From NCBI RefSeq assembly GCF_019679455.1, contig NZ_JAIEZQ010000001.1:1488001-1552000 (forward strand): a DNA stretch of 64,000 nt, written 5' to 3'. A program made the translations under genes and the position numbers. The stretch's first letter is position 1. Each line of letters begins with the position of its first letter. Below are positions 27,489 to 41,703 of this stretch, piece after piece. Under the pieces are notes generated by a model. It was not told the DNA's origin and made no database searches. It worked only from the letters and a program-made list of their open reading frames with translations. Origin of the DNA: Nocardioides jiangsuensis. Lineage in GTDB: Bacteria; Actinomycetota; Actinomycetes; Propionibacteriales; Nocardioidaceae.

Positions 27489-28468
27489 GTATCGAAGTAG
27501 CGGGGGTCAGCAAGCGTTTCGGCGACTTCGTGGCTCTCGACGACGTCTCCGTCACCATCCCCTCCGGGCAGCTCACCGCGCTGCTCGGGCCGAGCGGCGG
27601 TGGCAAGTCCACGCTGCTGCGGATCATCGCTGGCCTGGAGTCCTCCGACACCGGCACGATCCACATCGAGGGCACGGAGGCCACGCACCTGCCGGCACAG
27701 AAGCGCAACGTGGGCTTCGTCTTCCAGCACTACGCCGCCTTCAAGCACATGAGCGTGGCCAAGAACGTGGCTTTCGGTCTCGAGATCCGCAGGAGGCCGA
27801 AGAACGAGGTCAGGGCGAGGGTGGACGAGCTCCTCCGGCTCGTGCACCTGCAGCAGTTCGCGCACCGGCTGCCCGCACAGCTCTCCGGGGGCCAGCGGCA
27901 GCGGATGGCCCTCGCCCGGGCGCTCGCGGTCGAGCCGACCGTGCTCCTTCTCGACGAGCCGTTCGGTGCACTCGACGCGAAGGTCCGCAAGGAGCTGCGG
28001 GACTGGCTGCGCCGGCTCCACGACGAGGTACACGTCACCACCGTCTTCGTGACCCATGACCAGGAGGAGGCCCTCGAGGTCGCCGACGAGATCGTCGTGA
28101 TCAACGAGGGGCGCATCGAGCAGGTCGGCACCCCGGACCAGCTGTACGACGAGCCGGCGAACGACTTCGTGATGAGCTTCCTCGGCCCGGTCACCCGGCT
28201 CGACGGTGAGCTGGTCCGGCCTCACGACCTCGACGTGCTCGACCACGACCGGGTCCTCGGCGCGACCCCGGGGACGGTGACCCGGGTGGTCCGGGTCGGG
28301 TTCGAGGTGCGGCTGGCCGTGCGCACAGCGGTCGAGCCGGACGTGAGCGTCGTGCTCACGCGCGCGGAGGCCCGCGGGCTCGGTGTGGACGTCGGGTCGC
28401 CGGTGTGGCTCGTGCCGACCCGGGGGGCCACCACGGTCCCGGTGATGCCGAGGGCGACCGCGGGCTGA
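27485..28468 (+). CDS. cysA: Sulfate ABC transporter ATP-binding protein
   Basis: Energises sulfate import. Walker [10 protein letters not shown] (about 36-44), Q-loop FQHYAAF, signature LSGGQRQR, Walker [13 protein letters not shown] and switch His in THDQEEAL are all intact. A TOBE-like C-terminal region follows. Length 327 aa, a little short for CysA (about 350). The start overlaps cysW, and the longer upstream frame is inside cysW. Last gene of the operon. Confidence 0.93.
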
Positions 28469-28518
28469 CGGAGCGGGCGCGGGCTGACGGAGCGGGCGCG
28501 GGGGTCCCGCTCCGTCAG
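28461..28518. repeat. 19-bp tandem duplication and hairpin at the cysA/ldt junction
   Basis: A 19-bp unit (CGGGCTGACGGAGCGGGCG) occurs twice without a gap at 28461-28479 and 28480-28498, starting over the cysA stop. The segment CTGACGGAGCGGG (28484-28496) pairs perfectly with CCCGCTCCGTCAG (28506-28518), giving a 13-bp stem. The first copy can pair with the same right arm. No T run follows on either strand. The hairpin overlaps the stop of the convergent ldt gene and could slow polymerase from both sides. Confidence 0.6.
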
Positions 28519-35746: not shown

Positions 35747-37296
35747 GGACCGCCGTCGCCCTGAACGGGCTGCTCGCCGTGCCCGCGCTCTTCGCGCTGC
35801 TCACCGGCCTCCTCTCCCGGCGCGAGCGGGCGGCCGTCGCCGCCGCGGTGACCGGGTCGCTGGTCACCCTCGCCTGGTCGGTGTGGACGGTGTCGTCGTA
35901 CGACGGCGGCCTGACGCCGGGCAGCACGGTCGACGTGGACTGGGTCGCGAGCATGGGCATCGGCTGGCGCCTCGGCGTGGACGGGATCTCCGCGCCGCTG
36001 GTGCTGATGACGACGCTGATCTTCGCCTGCTGCCTCGTGGCGCTGGTGCGGCACGACCCGCCGGGTGGCGGCCGGGTCGGGCTCGCGGTGCTGCTGCTGG
36101 TGATCGAGTCCGGCGTGCTCGGCAGCTTCCTGGCGCTCGACATGGTGCTGTTCTTCGTCTTCTTCGAGGTCGCGCTGATCCCGATGTGGTTCGTGATCCA
36201 CACCTGGGGCGACGAGCACGACGAGCCGGGCCGGCACCGCGCCGCCGTACGGTTCCTGGTCTTCACCGTGACCGGCTCCGCGCTGATGCTGGTCGGCTTC
36301 CTGGTCGCCCGCACGCGCACCGGCACCTTCGACATCGTGGGGACCGCCGCGTCGTACGACGCCTCCGGCCCGCTCGCGCTGACCGCCAGCCTGCTGGTCG
36401 CGCTGGGCCTCGCGGTGAAGACCCCGCTGTGGCCGCTGCACATCTGGCTGCCCGACGCCCACTCCAAGGCCCCCACGGTCGGGTCCGTGGTGCTCGCGGC
36501 GGTGCTGCTCAAGCTCGGCACCTACGGCTTCGTCCGGTTCTGGATGCCGCTCACCTCGCCGGAGTGGCTGCTGGTGCCCGTGGTCGCGGCGCTGGCCGTG
36601 GTCGGCATCGTGTACGCCGCGCTGGCGTGTCTCGCGCAGACCGACCTCAAGCGGCTGATCGCCTACTCCAGCGTGGGCCACATGGGCTTCGTGGTGCTCG
36701 GCGCGGCGACGTTCACCGTCGACGGCGTGCAGGCGGCGGTCTACGCCAGCGTCGCGCACGGGCTGATCACCGGCTTGCTGTTCTTCGTCGCCGGCGCGAT
36801 CAAGGACCGCTACGGCACCACCGACCTCGCCCGGCTCCGGGTGCTCTACGGCCGGGTCCCGCGGCTGGCCGGGGTGTTCGCGTTCGCCGCGATGGCCTCC
36901 CTGGGCCTGCCCGGGCTGGCCGGGTTCTGGGGCGAGATGCTCGCGATCCGGTCCGCCGTGGACCCGGCCGCCGCGCTGCCCGGGACGACGTACGCCTGGC
37001 TGGCGTTCGTCGCCGCGCTCGGCATCATCCTCACCTCGGCCTACTTCCTCGCGGTGATCCGCGGCATGCTCCAGGGCGGCCCGGTGCGGCCGGTGCACGG
37101 CGTCGACGCGACCGTCGAGCTCGTCGCGCCGGCCGTGGCCGACGACGTCTCGGCGGTGCGGACCCCGGACCTGCACGCGCTGGAGTGGGTGGCGTGGTCG
37201 CCGCTGCTCGCTCTCACCCTGGTCCTCGGCGTCGCGCCCGGACTCCTGCTCACGCCGGTCGGTGACGCCGTCGCCGCGTTCTTCGGAGGGCTGTGA
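35743..37296 (+). CDS. nuoM: Complex I subunit M, second cluster
   Basis: 517 aa with about 14 helices. FFEVALIPMWFVIHTWG holds the channel Glu, and VKTPLWPLHIWLPDAHSKAPT and YSSVGHMGFVVLGAA are standard NuoM blocks. GTG start in the overlap with nuoL2. The last base is shared with the nuoN2 ATG (TGATG). Confidence 0.93.
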   Translation: MRTAVALNGLLAVPALFALLTGLLSRRERAAVAAAVTGSLVTLAWSVWTVSSYDGGLTPGSTVDVDWVASMGIGWRLGVDGISAPLVLMTTLIFACCLVALVRHDPPGGGRVGLAVLLLVIESGVLGSFLALDMVLFFVFFEVALIPMWFVIHTWGDEHDEPGRHRAAVRFLVFTVTGSALMLVGFLVARTRTGTFDIVGTAASYDASGPLALTASLLVALGLAVKTPLWPLHIWLPDAHSKAPTVGSVVLAAVLLKLGTYGFVRFWMPLTSPEWLLVPVVAALAVVGIVYAALACLAQTDLKRLIAYSSVGHMGFVVLGAATFTVDGVQAAVYASVAHGLITGLLFFVAGAIKDRYGTTDLARLRVLYGRVPRLAGVFAFAAMASLGLPGLAGFWGEMLAIRSAVDPAAALPGTTYAWLAFVAALGIILTSAYFLAVIRGMLQGGPVRPVHGVDATVELVAPAVADDVSAVRTPDLHALEWVAWSPLLALTLVLGVAPGLLLTPVGDAVAAFFGGL

Positions 37297-38834
37297 TGGT
37301 GGACCTCGGCGGTGGCGTCCAGGCGATCGACTGGCTCGCGGTGGCCCCGGTGCTCGTGGTCGCGTGCGCCGCGGTCGTCGTGCTGCTCGCCGACGCGTTC
37401 GCGGGCCCGCCCCGGTCCCGGAGGCAGGCGCTCGTGCCCGCCGCGCTCACCCTGGCCGGCGTGGCCGCGGCCGCCGTCCCCGCGGTGCGGCTGTGGGGGG
37501 AGCGACGCTCCACGTTCTGCGTCGGCGGCGTCCTGGAGGGGCCCGCGGCGTGCTCCTTCGTGGTGGACCCGGTGACCCTGGTGTTCTGGGGGGTGGTGCT
37601 CTTCGGGACCGCGGTGGTCGCGCTGCTCGGAACCGCCGCCGTGGCCGAGGGCCGCACCCCGCAGGGGGAGTGGAACTTCCTGCTGCTCTGCTCCGCGACG
37701 GGCGCGATGGCGATCGCCGCCTCCCGCGACCTGGTCACCCTGGTGGTCGCGCTCGAGGTGGTCTCCCTGCCCGCGTTCGCGATGGTCGGTCTGCGCCGGG
37801 ACGATCCCCGCGCGGCCGAGGCGTCGATGAAGTTCTTCCTGGTCTCGGTGGTCTCCACCGCGGTGATGCTGATGGGTGTCTCGCTGGTGTACGGCGCCAC
37901 CGGGTCGATGTTCCTCACCCAGGTCGACCAGGCCCTCGTCACCGGCGCCGGGCCGCGCGAGGTGGCCGTGGCCGGCGCCCTGCTCACCGTGGTGGGCCTG
38001 GCGTTCAAGGTGGCCGCGGTGCCCTTCCACATGTGGGTGCCCGACACCTACGTGGGGGCGCCCGTCGCGGTCGCGGCCTACCTCTCGGTGGTGTCCAAGG
38101 CGGCCGGCTTCGTCGGGCTGATGCTGGTGCTCGGCCTCGGGCTGCGGGACCTCGCACCGGTCTGGGCCCCGCTCGTGGCGGTGCTCGCGGCGCTGACCAT
38201 GACCGTCGGCAACGTGCTGGCGCTCGGGCAGCAGCACGCGGTGCGGCTGCTCGCCTGGTCGTCGGTGGCGCAGGCCGGGTACATGCTGGTGCCGTTCGCC
38301 GCGGTCGGCGCGGCCGGCGCGGCCGGCTCGGCCGGCGCGGCCGGCTCCGGGGCGGGCGGCCTGGAGCCGCTCGGCGCCTCGGTGGGGTACCTCGCGATCT
38401 ACGCGTTCGTCAACCTCGGCGCGTTCGCCGTCGCCGCGGTCGTCGGCACCCGGCACCCGCGGCAGCGGCTGACCGACTACCGCGGGCTGGTCCGCGAGGA
38501 GCCGCTGGCCGGGTGGGCGCTGGTCTTCGCGCTGGTCGCGCTGGCCGGCCTGCCGCCGGGCGTGGTCGGCCTGCTCGCGAAGGTCGTGGTGTTCTCCTCC
38601 GTGTCGAGCGCGGTCACCTGGCTCGCGGTGGTGATGGCCGTGAACGTCGCGATCGGCCTCGTGTACTACGCCCGCTGGCTGGTGGAGCTGTTCCGTCCCG
38701 CGGAGGTCCCGGGCCGGTCGACGTACGACGTGCCGAACGGGGTCGGTGTCGCGGTCGGGATGACCTTCGCCGCCGGTGTCGTGCTCTCGGTGTTCCCGGG
38801 CCTCCTCCTCGACCCCGTCCTCGCCATCTTCTGA
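37296..38834 (+). CDS. nuoN: Complex I subunit N, second cluster
   Basis: 512 aa antiporter-like subunit with VALEVVSLPAFAMVGL, KVAAVPFHMWVPDTYVGAPV and VRLLAWSSVAQAGYMLVPF. ATG 37296 follows GGAGGG by five bases (a GTG three bases upstream is possible). A short Ala/Gly repeat (38310-38350) lies in a loop near residue 345. Last gene of the partial complex I operon; tandem 22-bp repeats begin ten bases after the stop. Confidence 0.92.
   Translation: MVDLGGGVQAIDWLAVAPVLVVACAAVVVLLADAFAGPPRSRRQALVPAALTLAGVAAAAVPAVRLWGERRSTFCVGGVLEGPAACSFVVDPVTLVFWGVVLFGTAVVALLGTAAVAEGRTPQGEWNFLLLCSATGAMAIAASRDLVTLVVALEVVSLPAFAMVGLRRDDPRAAEASMKFFLVSVVSTAVMLMGVSLVYGATGSMFLTQVDQALVTGAGPREVAVAGALLTVVGLAFKVAAVPFHMWVPDTYVGAPVAVAAYLSVVSKAAGFVGLMLVLGLGLRDLAPVWAPLVAVLAALTMTVGNVLALGQQHAVRLLAWSSVAQAGYMLVPFAAVGAAGAAGSAGAAGSGAGGLEPLGASVGYLAIYAFVNLGAFAVAAVVGTRHPRQRLTDYRGLVREEPLAGWALVFALVALAGLPPGVVGLLAKVVVFSSVSSAVTWLAVVMAVNVAIGLVYYARWLVELFRPAEVPGRSTYDVPNGVGVAVGMTFAAGVVLSVFPGLLLDPVLAIF
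38310..38350 (+). repeat. 18-bp imperfect tandem repeat inside nuoN2
   Basis: A GGCGCGGCCGGCTCGGCC-like unit is repeated a little over twice. It encodes an AAGAAGSAGAAGSG linker between helices of NuoN2. The first NuoN has no such stretch at the same place. Probably a slippage-prone loop expansion with little effect on function. Confidence 0.6.
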
Positions 38835-38843
38835 GCCCCGACC

Positions 38844-38909
38844 TTCGGCGTTGAGAGGTCACTCGTTCGGCGTTGAGGCGTCAGTCCGTCGGCGTCGAGA
38901 GGTCACTCG
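38844..38909. repeat. Three tandem 22-bp repeats at the nuoN2/merR convergent junction
   Basis: Three contiguous units of exactly 22 bp at 38844-38865, 38866-38887 and 38888-38909. The shared pattern is TTCGGCGTTGAG followed by (A/C)-variable GG/GCG and TCACTCG or TCAGTCC. They fill the gap between the convergent nuoN2 (ends 38834) and merR (ends 38919). Related units occur at 41036-41183. Function unknown; a role in transcription termination or as a processed RNA is possible. Confidence 0.8.
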
Positions 38910-38918
38910 GTCGGAGCA

Positions 38919-39791
38919 TCAGGGCCGCGCACGGTCGACGTAGGTCAGCATCCGGTCGAACATCGAGGTCGCCTCGCGCAGGTCGGCCGAGACCTCCCGC
39001 GGTGCCCACTCCGGGGGCGCGGGCAGCTCGTCGGCCCGCTCGGGAGCGAGCTCGCGGGCCAGGGTGAGGGCGATCCGCGCGGCCTCCCGTACGACGGTGG
39101 GGTCGAGGCTCCACACGGCCTCGAAGCGGCGGTCGGCGTCGCGGACGGCCTGCTGGCCGGGGACCTCCCACGCCGACAGGAACGCCGGGAAGTCCGGAGC
39201 GTCGCAGACCAGGAACCACTCGCGGCGCATGGCCGCCCGGTCGGGCAGGTGGACCCGCAGCGGCGTGCCGGCGCCCGACTCGTGCGGGGCCGTGAGGGCG
39301 GCGAAGACGACGGCGGCGTGCGCCGTACGGGACAGCTCGCGCCAGCGGGCCTCGGCCTGCCGGAGGAAGCGCTCGTCCTGGAAGCCGGCGACCAGCAGCG
39401 GCTCGCGGGAACGTGCGCAGCACTCGTCCTCCATCGCGTGGGTGAGGGCGAGCAGCGTGGACTTGCGCAGGGTCCGGGTGACCAGGGCGGGGTGGCGGCG
39501 GCGGACGCCGGCGAACACCGAGTGGTCGGTGGCCGCGGACTCCCGGGTCGTCGCCGCGATGGCGGCCTCGAGGGTGAGGCCGCGGGCGCGGTGCTCGAGG
39601 ACCTGGCGCACCTGGCTGACGTGGTGCTCGGTGTAGCGGCGGTGCCCGCCGGGACGCCGTACCGGCTCGGGGAAGCCGTGCCGCGTCTCCCAGGTGCGCA
39701 GTGTCGCCGCCGACAGCCCGGTGCGCTCCGCGAGGTCGCTGATCGAGAAAGCCGCCGCGGGGTCTTGCGGAATCTTCTGCACCGTGTCCAT
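38919..39791 (-). CDS. MerR-family regulator with C-terminal DICT sensor domain
   Basis: 290 aa. Residues about 14-80 form the MerR winged helix (FSISDLAERTGLSAATLRTW, then HRRYTEHHVSQVRQVL). The rest resembles the DICT domain, a sensor found with diguanylate cyclases and MerR regulators; ligand unknown. The ATG at 39791 sits six bases after a TATGCT box, so the mRNA is probably leaderless. A perfect 9-bp dyad just upstream suggests autoregulation. It is divergent from the small ORF/FHA pair and convergent with the second nuo operon. Confidence 0.82.
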   Translation of the reverse strand: MDTVQKIPQDPAAAFSISDLAERTGLSAATLRTWETRHGFPEPVRRPGGHRRYTEHHVSQVRQVLEHRARGLTLEAAIAATTRESAATDHSVFAGVRRRHPALVTRTLRKSTLLALTHAMEDECCARSREPLLVAGFQDERFLRQAEARWRELSRTAHAAVVFAALTAPHESGAGTPLRVHLPDRAAMRREWFLVCDAPDFPAFLSAWEVPGQQAVRDADRRFEAVWSLDPTVVREAARIALTLARELAPERADELPAPPEWAPREVSADLREATSMFDRMLTYVDRARP

Positions 39792-39797
39792 GCTAGA

Positions 39798-39837
39798 AGC
39801 ATAAATCTAAACAGGCTGTTTAAGAAAGAGCCTGTTT
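39798..39837 (-). promoter_or_regulatory. merR promoter with 9-bp dyad operator
   Basis: On the minus strand TATGCT (39803-39798) is a -10 box six bases before the merR ATG. Upstream is a perfect inverted repeat, AAACAGGCT (39809-39817) and AGCCTGTTT (39829-39837), with an 11-base spacer. It covers the -35/-10 spacer region where MerR-type regulators bind. It could also control the plus-strand gene starting at 39886. Confidence 0.6.
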
Positions 39838-39885
39838 TCCGTGGCGGCGGCCGGTCCGGCCCCCGCACCAGCAGGAGGTAGTGAG

Positions 39886-40125
39886 ATGACCGAGAACCGT
39901 GTGCTCCAGCCGGACGTCGTGGACTGGACCGACCTGGGGCGTCAGATGTGGACGTTCCTCACCGGCCGCGACGCCGCGGTCAACTACAGCTTCGTCGACA
40001 TGACCGTCGAGGTGCCGCGCGACACCGGGGTCGACGCCCCGCGGGCGACCTGGAAGATCGACGGGACGCTGCGGATCACGACCAGTGACAACGAGACCGC
40101 CCGGCTGCGCGAGCGGGGGAACTGA
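39886..40125 (+). CDS. Small conserved-looking protein of unknown function
   Basis: 79 aa from ATG 39886, with GCAGGAGG nine bases upstream; the frame is open further upstream but without a better start. The protein is soluble. It has an N-terminal amphipathic segment (DWTDLGRQMWTFLTGRDA) and then alternating beta-like residues ending in IDGTLRITT. I do not recognise the family. Its gene is three bases before the FHA-domain gene and probably in one operon with it. Confidence 0.6.
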   Translation: MTENRVLQPDVVDWTDLGRQMWTFLTGRDAAVNYSFVDMTVEVPRDTGVDAPRATWKIDGTLRITTSDNETARLRERGN

Positions 40126-40128
40126 GCG

Positions 40129-41034
40129 ATGGCCGGGCGGCTCCTGGTCGACGCCGACATCCGGATCTCCCTGATCCCGGGCAGGTCCGGCGAGCCCGCC
40201 GTGGAGGCGCGGCTGCGCGGGTCGGGAACCCGGCTGGAGCTCGCCGTGGACAACCCGCAGGCGCTGGCGGACCTGCGCGGGCGCCGCATGGTGGCGGGTA
40301 TCGCGGACCAGCTCGCGCACGACGGGCTCACCGTGCGGGTGGTCGCGGACGGCGCCGAGCTGATGGTGCTCGGGGTGCCGCGCACGTCGTGGCTGCAGCG
40401 GCGGGTCACCGGCTCCCGGCACGTGAAGGTGCATCGACGCGGAGCCTTCGCTGCCCTGGCGCTGCGTCGCCCCGCCGGAGGCGCGAGCCCGGTGCTGCCC
40501 AGCGGTGACCTCGGGCCGCCGCCCACGCCGCTGCCGCTGGCGCCGACGTTCCTGCGCCGGCGTCGCGGACCGGTGACCACCACCCACGACCCCGAGGGCG
40601 GGGGCGATCCGCGCCTCGTCGCGCCGCCCGGGCACTGGCCGTGGGACGTGCCGGCCGTCTTCCACCTCCGGCACGGCGTGACCACGATCGGCAGCGACCC
40701 GGCCAACGACATCGTGCTCGAGGGGCTCGACCCCTACCACGCGGAGATCCGCCGGAACGCCGACGACGAGTACGTCGTGGTCCACCTCGGCCGGTCCGGT
40801 CTCAGCCGCCTCAACGGCGAGCCGGTCCGCGAGCGCATCCTGCGCACCGGGGCCCGGCTCGAGGTCGGCGAGTGGACGATGGTCTACGCCCGTGAGGAGT
40901 ACGCCGACCACGGACGCCCGTACGGCGGCCGGGTGGGCGGCGAGGTCGGCCACCAGAAGGCTCAGCCCCCGTTGCGCGCGGTCCCGAACGTCGCGAGCTT
41001 CGACCGGAGTCCCCGTCCCGACAACGACCGGTGA
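40129..41034 (+). CDS. FHA-domain protein
   Basis: 301 aa. The C-terminal half (about 165-260) is a forkhead-associated domain, which binds phosphothreonine: TTIGSDPANDIVL, YHAEIRRN, LGRSGLSRLNGEPV, LEVGEWTMVYAREE. The N-terminal half has weak beta-rich text without a known domain, followed by a Pro-rich linker. FHA proteins act with Ser/Thr kinases in actinobacteria; no kinase is next to it. ATG start three bases after the small ORF. Ends two bases before the first of the 22-bp repeats. Confidence 0.8.
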   Translation: MAGRLLVDADIRISLIPGRSGEPAVEARLRGSGTRLELAVDNPQALADLRGRRMVAGIADQLAHDGLTVRVVADGAELMVLGVPRTSWLQRRVTGSRHVKVHRRGAFAALALRRPAGGASPVLPSGDLGPPPTPLPLAPTFLRRRRGPVTTTHDPEGGGDPRLVAPPGHWPWDVPAVFHLRHGVTTIGSDPANDIVLEGLDPYHAEIRRNADDEYVVVHLGRSGLSRLNGEPVRERILRTGARLEVGEWTMVYAREEYADHGRPYGGRVGGEVGHQKAQPPLRAVPNVASFDRSPRPDNDR

Positions 41035-41035
41035 G

Positions 41036-41183
41036 GAGCCTGTTGAGAGGTCAGTCGTGCGGTGTCGAGAGGTCAGTCGTGCGGGCACGAGGGGTCAGTA
41101 GTTCCGCGGCCGCCGTACGACAGACGCCTCAACGCCTCACGACTGACGCCTGAACGCCGAAGGAGTGACGCCTCAACGACGGG
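41036..41183. repeat. Mirror array of 22-bp repeats (3 direct, 16-bp spacer, 3 inverted)
   Basis: Three direct units (41036-41057, 41058-41079, 41080-41101) share GAGAGGTCAGTCG-type cores. After a 16-bp spacer (41102-41117) come three units in the opposite direction (41118-41139, 41140-41161, 41162-41183) with GACGCCTCAACG-type cores. All are exactly 22 bp and without gaps. Opposing units match at about 42 of 66 positions by hand count, so the transcript could fold into a long imperfect hairpin. Same family as 38844-38909; this array also fills a convergent junction (FHA gene / yajQ). Confidence 0.8.
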
Positions 41184-41211: not shown

Positions 41212-41703
41212 TCAGCGGTAGTTGTTGAACTGCACCGCGAAGTCGTAGTCCTGCTCCTTGACCAGGGCGATCACGGACTGCAGGTCGTCGCGCTTCTTGC
41301 TCGAGACGCGCAGCTCGTCGCCCTGCACCTGGACCTTGACGCCCTTGGGGCCCTCGTCGCGGATCAGCTTGCCGATCTTCTTGGCGTGCTCCTGGCTGAT
41401 CCCCTCCTTGAGCGCGACGGTGATCTTGGTGTCGCGGCCGGACTGGCGCGGGTCGCCGGCGTCGAGGATCTTCAGCGACTGGTTGCGCTTGATCAGCTTG
41501 TCCTTGAACACGTCGAGCACGGCGAGCGCGCGGTCCTCGGCGTTCGCGGTGATCTCGACCGCCTGGTCGCCGGACCACTCGATGGTGGCGCCGGTGTTCT
41601 TGAAGTCGAAGCGCTGGGTCAGCTCACGCTGGGCCTGGTTCAGGGCGTTGTCGATCTCCTGGTGGTCGAGCTTGCTCACGATGTCGAACGACGAGTCGGC
41701 CAT
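41212..41703 (-). CDS. yajQ: YajQ family nucleotide-binding protein
   Basis: 163 aa, the usual length for this two-domain RNP-like family (UPF0234). [23 protein letters not shown] at the start (conserved SFDIVS), QRFDFKNT, and the C-terminal [12 protein letters not shown] are diagnostic. Members bind nucleotides, in some bacteria cyclic di-GMP, but the role in actinobacteria is not settled. ATG with GGAGGAAC upstream. Divergent from tRNA-Tyr. Confidence 0.93.

Follow-up and report, generated by a model that had tools for sequence, protein, structure and literature searches.

Dispersed 22-bp repeat arrays at gene 3' ends in Nocardioides jiangsuensis and a candidate partner nuclease with AbiEi-like and Vsr-like halves

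The 22-bp arrays and their placement

The window analysed here is a 64,000-bp stretch of the Nocardioides jiangsuensis genome (contig NZ_JAIEZQ010000001.1, positions 1,488,001 to 1,552,000). Within it, two junctions of converging genes carry tandem repeats, namely that between a nuoN-like gene and a gene for a MerR-type regulator, and that between a gene for an FHA-domain protein and a yajQ-like gene. The features, in window coordinates, are as follows.

37296-38834, + strand: nuoN-like gene, 512 aa, whose 3' end bears the first array
38850-38915, + strand: array in the nuoN/merR junction, three 22-bp units (GTTGAGAGGTCACTCGTTCGGC / GTTGAGGCGTCAGTCCGTCGGC / GTCGAGAGGTCACTCGGTCGGA)
38919-39791, - strand: gene for a MerR-HTH and DICT-domain regulator, convergent with nuoN
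40129-41034, + strand: gene for an FHA-domain protein, whose 3' end bears the second array
41042-41107, + strand: three 22-bp units in direct orientation, of which the third is degenerate, located 7 bp past the stop of the FHA-domain gene
41108-41111, no strand: spacer GGCC, 4 bp, separating the facing arrays
41112-41177, - strand: inverted array with three 22-bp units, at a distance of 34 bp from the stop of yajQ
41212-41703, - strand: YajQ-like gene, whose 3' end bears the inverted array

An earlier note on this DNA had described nine units of exactly 22 bp, and all nine are present, at three array sites, with the two shared cores that it named (GTYGAG and GTCASTC). The three direct units that it placed in the nuoN/merR junction start 15 bp past the nuoN stop and end 3 bp short of the merR stop. 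The mirror array at the FHA/yajQ junction likewise consists of three direct and three inverted units as described, but the spacer between them is 4 bp rather than 16 bp, a length that depends on where the unit boundaries are placed. Two other repeats occur in the window: a perfect 19-bp tandem repeat (CGCGGGCTGACGGAGCGGG, 2.3 copies) at 28459-28502, which bears no relation to the 22-bp family, and a nine-base CGCGGCCGG repeat (5 copies, 91%) at 38300-38345 inside nuoN, which encodes an Ala/Gly stretch.

The consensus unit in the source genome (referred to as G000) is GTYGAGRSGTCASTCGTKCGGC. The exact 15-base core GTYGAGRSGTCASTC has 158 copies in this 3.97-Mb genome, and the same pattern read backwards has none. 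A matrix scan of the sequence stretches around arrays (39 loci plus the window) recovered 218 units in 66 arrays, versus one match in the reversed sequence used as a control, and the spacing from unit to unit was exactly 22 bp in 151 of 152 cases; most arrays have three or four units. Arrays are held by about 50 gene junctions across the chromosome. The 22-bp units form a true dispersed family at gene 3' ends.

The restriction to convergent junctions that the window had suggested to the earlier note does not extend to the genome, as arrays lie at 24 convergent, 26 co-directional, and 2 divergent junctions in the G000 loci. Arrays are nonetheless enriched at convergent junctions, with 24 of 61 occupied versus 26 of 248 co-directional and 2 of 61 divergent ones, although the selection of loci around arrays biases this background. 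The corresponding placement in other array-rich genomes is 51 convergent, 36 co-directional, and 1 divergent. Copies were not found equally within genes and promoters; arrays are nearly absent from both, and none lies inside any called gene body in the G000 loci scanned. The first unit often starts 3-28 bp downstream of a stop codon or provides the stop codon itself. In the latter case the array overlaps the last codons of the gene (GT-TGA-G, distance -5), which often ends in -PR* because CCTCGTTGA is read. Some arrays run antisense to the gene they follow. Where two arrays face each other within 400 bp, the order is + then - in all 13 pairs of G000 and in 25 of 25 elsewhere, and the opposite order occurs in neither set. 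A pyrimidine tract (CCCCCTC-like) is located upstream of most first units in G000.

The motif CCGTACGG / GTACGGC and short GC hairpins occur frequently in spacers beside arrays and between facing ones (L041, 4718-4761; the centres in L044, L058, and L063). More distant facing arrays enclose other genes in L045, L059, L060, L066, and L074 (MerR-like, GNAT, and transporter-like; several in L045 and L074), which may have been captured or may simply be located between two array sites. The GNAT gene between facing arrays in L066 is common to G000 and G002, a genome of the same genus. A mobile cassette carrying arbitrary cargo between arrays was rejected as a general reading, because acVLRF1 (L041) occupies the same place without arrays in G003, also of this genus.

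Within arrays, conservation is best in the first unit; the last unit is the most degenerate and has a linker of its own, often GTTCCGG. The earlier note had proposed that the repeats act as bidirectional terminators or RNA-processing elements, and that the mirror array could form an imperfect hairpin. RNA of 41036-41183 can indeed fold (-76.1 kcal/mol, z -4.2), but hairpin formation does not look selected, because the complementarity of facing arrays is below chance. Compared at three mirror positions, facing arrays of one junction scored 0.70, 0.72, and 0.77, versus 0.74, 0.76, and 0.83 for arrays of different junctions, with about 0.4-2.4% of shuffles equally low. Many arrays, moreover, lack a mirror partner. 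An intrinsic bidirectional terminator would have a stable GC hairpin with a U-run after it in both directions; the observations here are one mirror array that folds well, many arrays that are unpaired, and a mirror complementarity below chance. No match above the gathering score was found in the arrays with Rfam. Two other candidates were set aside. For a role in providing a stop codon in every reading frame (22 = 1 mod 3), the TGAC of the reverse strand is indeed conserved, but species with CGAG have lost the sense TGA, and for Tn7-type ends or plasmid iterons, suggested by the 22-bp spacing, no associated transposase or replication gene was found.

A recurrent gene between facing arrays

When the genes at G000 array 3' ends were sought beside the arrays of other genomes, a single gene recurred. 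It is located outside the window (G000:C2:206814-207716, L061), encodes a product of 301 aa, and sits between two facing arrays, with rlmB and a DUF4032-like gene as its neighbours. One array-flanked homologue was found in each of ten array-bearing genomes (11 searched); in two of these ten the strict core pattern marks one flank, and a tandem-repeat search reveals the second. Other paralogues in array-bearing genomes are without this repeat core.

A profile built from nine flanked proteins has matches in 257 of the 346 Nocardioidaceae genomes searched. Among the 30 best nuclease loci, the majority have inverted 21-22-bp tandem repeats around the gene, with a unit private to each locus. Under uniform flank scoring (period 21-22, threshold 0.65), arrays were present on both sides of 27 of 42 nuclease loci versus none of 149 control genes, and on at least one side of 38 of 42 versus 10 of 149. 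Units on the left and right flanks of one locus have a similarity of 0.80, versus 0.52 between different loci. The 30 loci occupy about 11 distinct chromosomal locations, and those at one common location carry very different units.

Some nuclease paralogues are flanked by 29- or 32-bp units, and repeats of 32, 29, 21, and 60 bp accompany distant AbiEi/DUF559-like paralogues in L274 (1263-1382 and 2415-2503), L284 (2490-2595), L286 (1400-1466 and 2501-2560), and L287 (880-1321). Judging from these sequences, the pairing of gene and repeat may extend well beyond the 22-bp group. The protein and its close relatives were not found in phage records, and plasmid collections contained no close relative, only remote ones.

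The AlphaFold2 model of the 301-aa protein (pLDDT 88) contains the winged-helix DNA-binding domain and the second domain characteristic of AbiEi. Its N-terminal ~195 residues match an AbiEi antitoxin (Foldseek, 6y8q, E 5.8e-7, 195 columns), and the PADLOC AbiEi model matches the N-terminal half (E 1.7e-14). The model also matches the catalytic domain of I-Bth0305I (Foldseek, 3r3p, TM 0.74 by target, E 0.044), which we infer from Pfam positions to correspond to the C-terminal part. Pfam itself gave only weak matches (MTES_1575, AbiEi_4, and DUF559). Six residues (E196, E200, D232, E243, D245, and H250) are invariant in the nine flanked proteins and may include the conserved E, D, H, and D of a Vsr-like catalytic domain. 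On the basis of the model, the protein is predicted to have two halves, one AbiEi-like and DNA-binding, the other a Vsr-like (I-Bth0305I-like) nuclease. Conservation reaches its minimum around the recognition helix (27% versus 61% for the nuclease; 46% versus 65% between G000 and G002), a sequence pattern that fits a shifting choice of target combined with unchanged catalysis.

Different units at shared sites in related genomes

Arrays of the G000 core were not found in G001 or G003, both of the same genus, and G002 gave two matches to a relaxed pattern (three copies of GAGNNGTCA in 22-bp phase). With this relaxed pattern, arrays were detected in Sinomonas as well as in many Nocardioides and their relatives. 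Their distribution is patchy (31 of 346 Nocardioidaceae genomes), the linker sequence is specific to each array-bearing genome, and some of the matches outside actinobacteria are probably unrelated repeats. Sinomonas atrocyanea (Micrococcaceae) has GTTGAGGAGTCACCTCC arrays together with a flanked homologue of ~35% identity (L155, L160, L211, L213, L223, L225, and L269), hinting at either transfer or great age.

The flanks of the nuclease gene also allowed the unit of other genomes to be read. The unit TYGAGRCGTGCASTTTTCGC from the G002 gene has 60 copies in G002 and none in G000, G001, or G003; likewise, the unit GTTGATTCNTCCYTCGTGGC from the gene in G250 has 41 copies in that genome, none in G000, and one two-mismatch match in G201. 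As the pairing of gene and repeat had predicted, each of these cognate repeats is dispersed in its own genome, as is the G000 repeat with its 158 exact cores, and both show the 22-bp spacing and facing pairs seen in G000. The same pyrimidine tract as in G000 precedes the arrays of G002.

Although their units differ, G000 and G002 share array junctions (7 of 23 sampled G002 sites, with ~0.3 expected, P about 2e-8). At aat (L050) and in L066, the array starts at the same base in both genomes after near-identical coding sequence, and the units are different. The nuclease gene lies between rlmB and the DUF4032-like gene in both, whereas these two genes abut in G003 with no insert. No array was present in the ten G003 regions examined, and its pgl/rbpA junction has a hairpin where G000 has arrays. 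The simplest reading of these comparisons is that the sites were inherited and the unit was then replaced throughout a genome. That arrays were inserted independently at hot spots is a less likely reading, given starts that agree to the base at two of the sites. Across all loci, protein divergence and unit divergence were not significantly correlated (Mantel 0.12, null maximum 0.23), and unit similarity rises only above ~65% protein identity.

A putative two-part element and its alternatives

We consider it probable that the arrays form the cis component of a REPtron-like chromosomal element in two parts, with the gene for the AbiEi-like/Vsr-like nuclease as its trans component. Genome comparison establishes, as sequence patterns, that nuclease loci are paired with a repeat, that this cognate repeat is scattered through its own genome and lies at gene ends, and that orthologous sites in one genus carry different units. 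For the activity behind these patterns, we infer a series of steps in which one protein molecule would bind each 22-bp unit (about two helical turns) through its N-terminal half, the nuclease would nick or cut at the arrays or beside them, and repair templated by other arrays would spread and homogenise them. Unit and protein specificity would change together through this repair-driven homogenisation. Insertions would be tolerated chiefly at 3' ends, as the damage there is slight, and the arrays may in addition contribute to transcription termination. Neither target-site duplications nor excision products were observed, and a host function could account just as well for array positions having been kept so long.

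Such a host function is central to the alternative that the arrays are transcription terminators or RNA-processing elements, with an AbiEi-type protein or another factor acting as a roadblock and the nuclease gene being incidental. The location of arrays within a few bases of stop codons, the pyrimidine tract that precedes first units in two species whose repeats differ, the superior conservation of the first unit, the hairpin at the orthologous pgl/rbpA junction of G003, and array positions apparently kept since the ancestor of G000 and G002 are all consistent with termination. However, this alternative would leave unexplained why one gene family, in many genomes, lies between inverted arrays of a private repeat, and why the repeat changes genome-wide. 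The arrays antisense to the preceding gene, the two in divergent junctions, and the low complementarity of facing arrays also argue against it, and on balance we regard it as unlikely.

We give still less credence to the arrays being inert remains of a cut-and-paste transposon, whose full element would be array-nuclease-array, with facing pairs as deletion derivatives, single arrays as solo ends, and a nuclease that only mobilises, with no homogenisation. The invariable + then - order of the 13 and 25 facing pairs, the rlmB/DUF4032 site that is full in G000 and empty in G003, and the roughly 11 chromosomal locations among 30 nuclease loci agree with such an origin, but neither a transposase domain nor a target-site duplication was seen, and the common positions with wholly different units in G000 and G002 would need homogenisation or selection after insertion. 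That nuclease and arrays constitute a defence or addiction module, in which the array-held protein cuts DNA that lacks or disrupts arrays, is very improbable, for although defence-associated AbiEi models match the N-terminal half (PADLOC, E about 1e-14), no AbiEii-type (DUF1814) toxin gene was recognised beside the nuclease gene in L061, and dozens of dispersed arrays are not known from such modules.

The favoured two-part element resembles REPtrons (REP/RAYT, PMC8266576) in that one chromosomal gene adjoins inverted copies of its own repeat, the repeat is dispersed in extragenic DNA and differs in sequence between lineages, and neither system is found on phages or broadly on plasmids. Unlike the REPtron enzyme, a Y1 HUH protein (TnpA_REP), the partner here is a predicted AbiEi/Vsr-like nuclease, in which no Y1 HUH tyrosine transposase was detected with Pfam or Foldseek; and instead of a GTAG-tagged hairpin there are non-palindromic 22-bp units in tandem arrays, the consensus unit having neither a palindrome nor a GTAG-type tag. 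Because the HUH enzyme and the tagged palindrome are absent, we do not class the element as a REPtron.

Type IV toxin-antitoxin AbiEi antitoxins (S. agalactiae AbiEi, M. tuberculosis Rv2827c) have a two-domain fold similar to that of the first ~195 residues and reportedly bind several repeats at a time, each of 23 bp (PMC7319586), a length comparable to the 22-bp unit. Their sites, however, are inverted repeats in one promoter rather than direct tandem arrays genome-wide, and the protein studied here is fused to a predicted nuclease, with no toxin gene recognised beside it in L061. The C-terminal domain resembles Vsr-like (EDxHD) homing endonucleases (I-Bth0305I; Pfam MTES_1575 / DUF559) in structure, and MTES_1575 weakly in sequence, but it is associated with no intron or intein, its gene lies between its own arrays, and the sites are many and non-homologous. 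The TAACTGA heptamers of Beggiatoaceae and Cyanobacteria (PMC4679880) are also short repeats in direct orientation, with 2-6 copies at each of many intergenic sites and a patchy occurrence across distant lineages, but their 7-bp units precede start codons, with no partner gene reported in the abstract. A search of open-access full text found no description of this repeat/nuclease pair. As far as that literature shows, neither component belongs to a described repeat/enzyme pair.

Taken at sequence level, the comparison suggests an undescribed self-spreading or self-homogenising DNA element. A bolder claim, which we advance tentatively and hold to be possible rather than probable, is that it represents an undescribed class of drive element in actinobacteria, in which an AbiEi-Vsr-like nuclease would recognise its own 22-bp tandem repeats and, through cutting and templated repair, rewrite all of them in the genome when its DNA-binding specificity shifts. 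The proposed concerted evolution of about 50 dispersed sites has a logic comparable to PRDM9 hotspot turnover. If this is true, a DNA target and a role could be assigned to many genes annotated only as AbiEi-like or DUF559 (with a match in 257 of the 346 Nocardioidaceae genomes searched), and the task of REP/RAYT elements would have been solved a second time with independently built parts. The element would further provide a bacterial case of dozens of dispersed sites changing sequence together with one protein, and the protein-DNA specificity would be readable from the paired loci by comparison alone.
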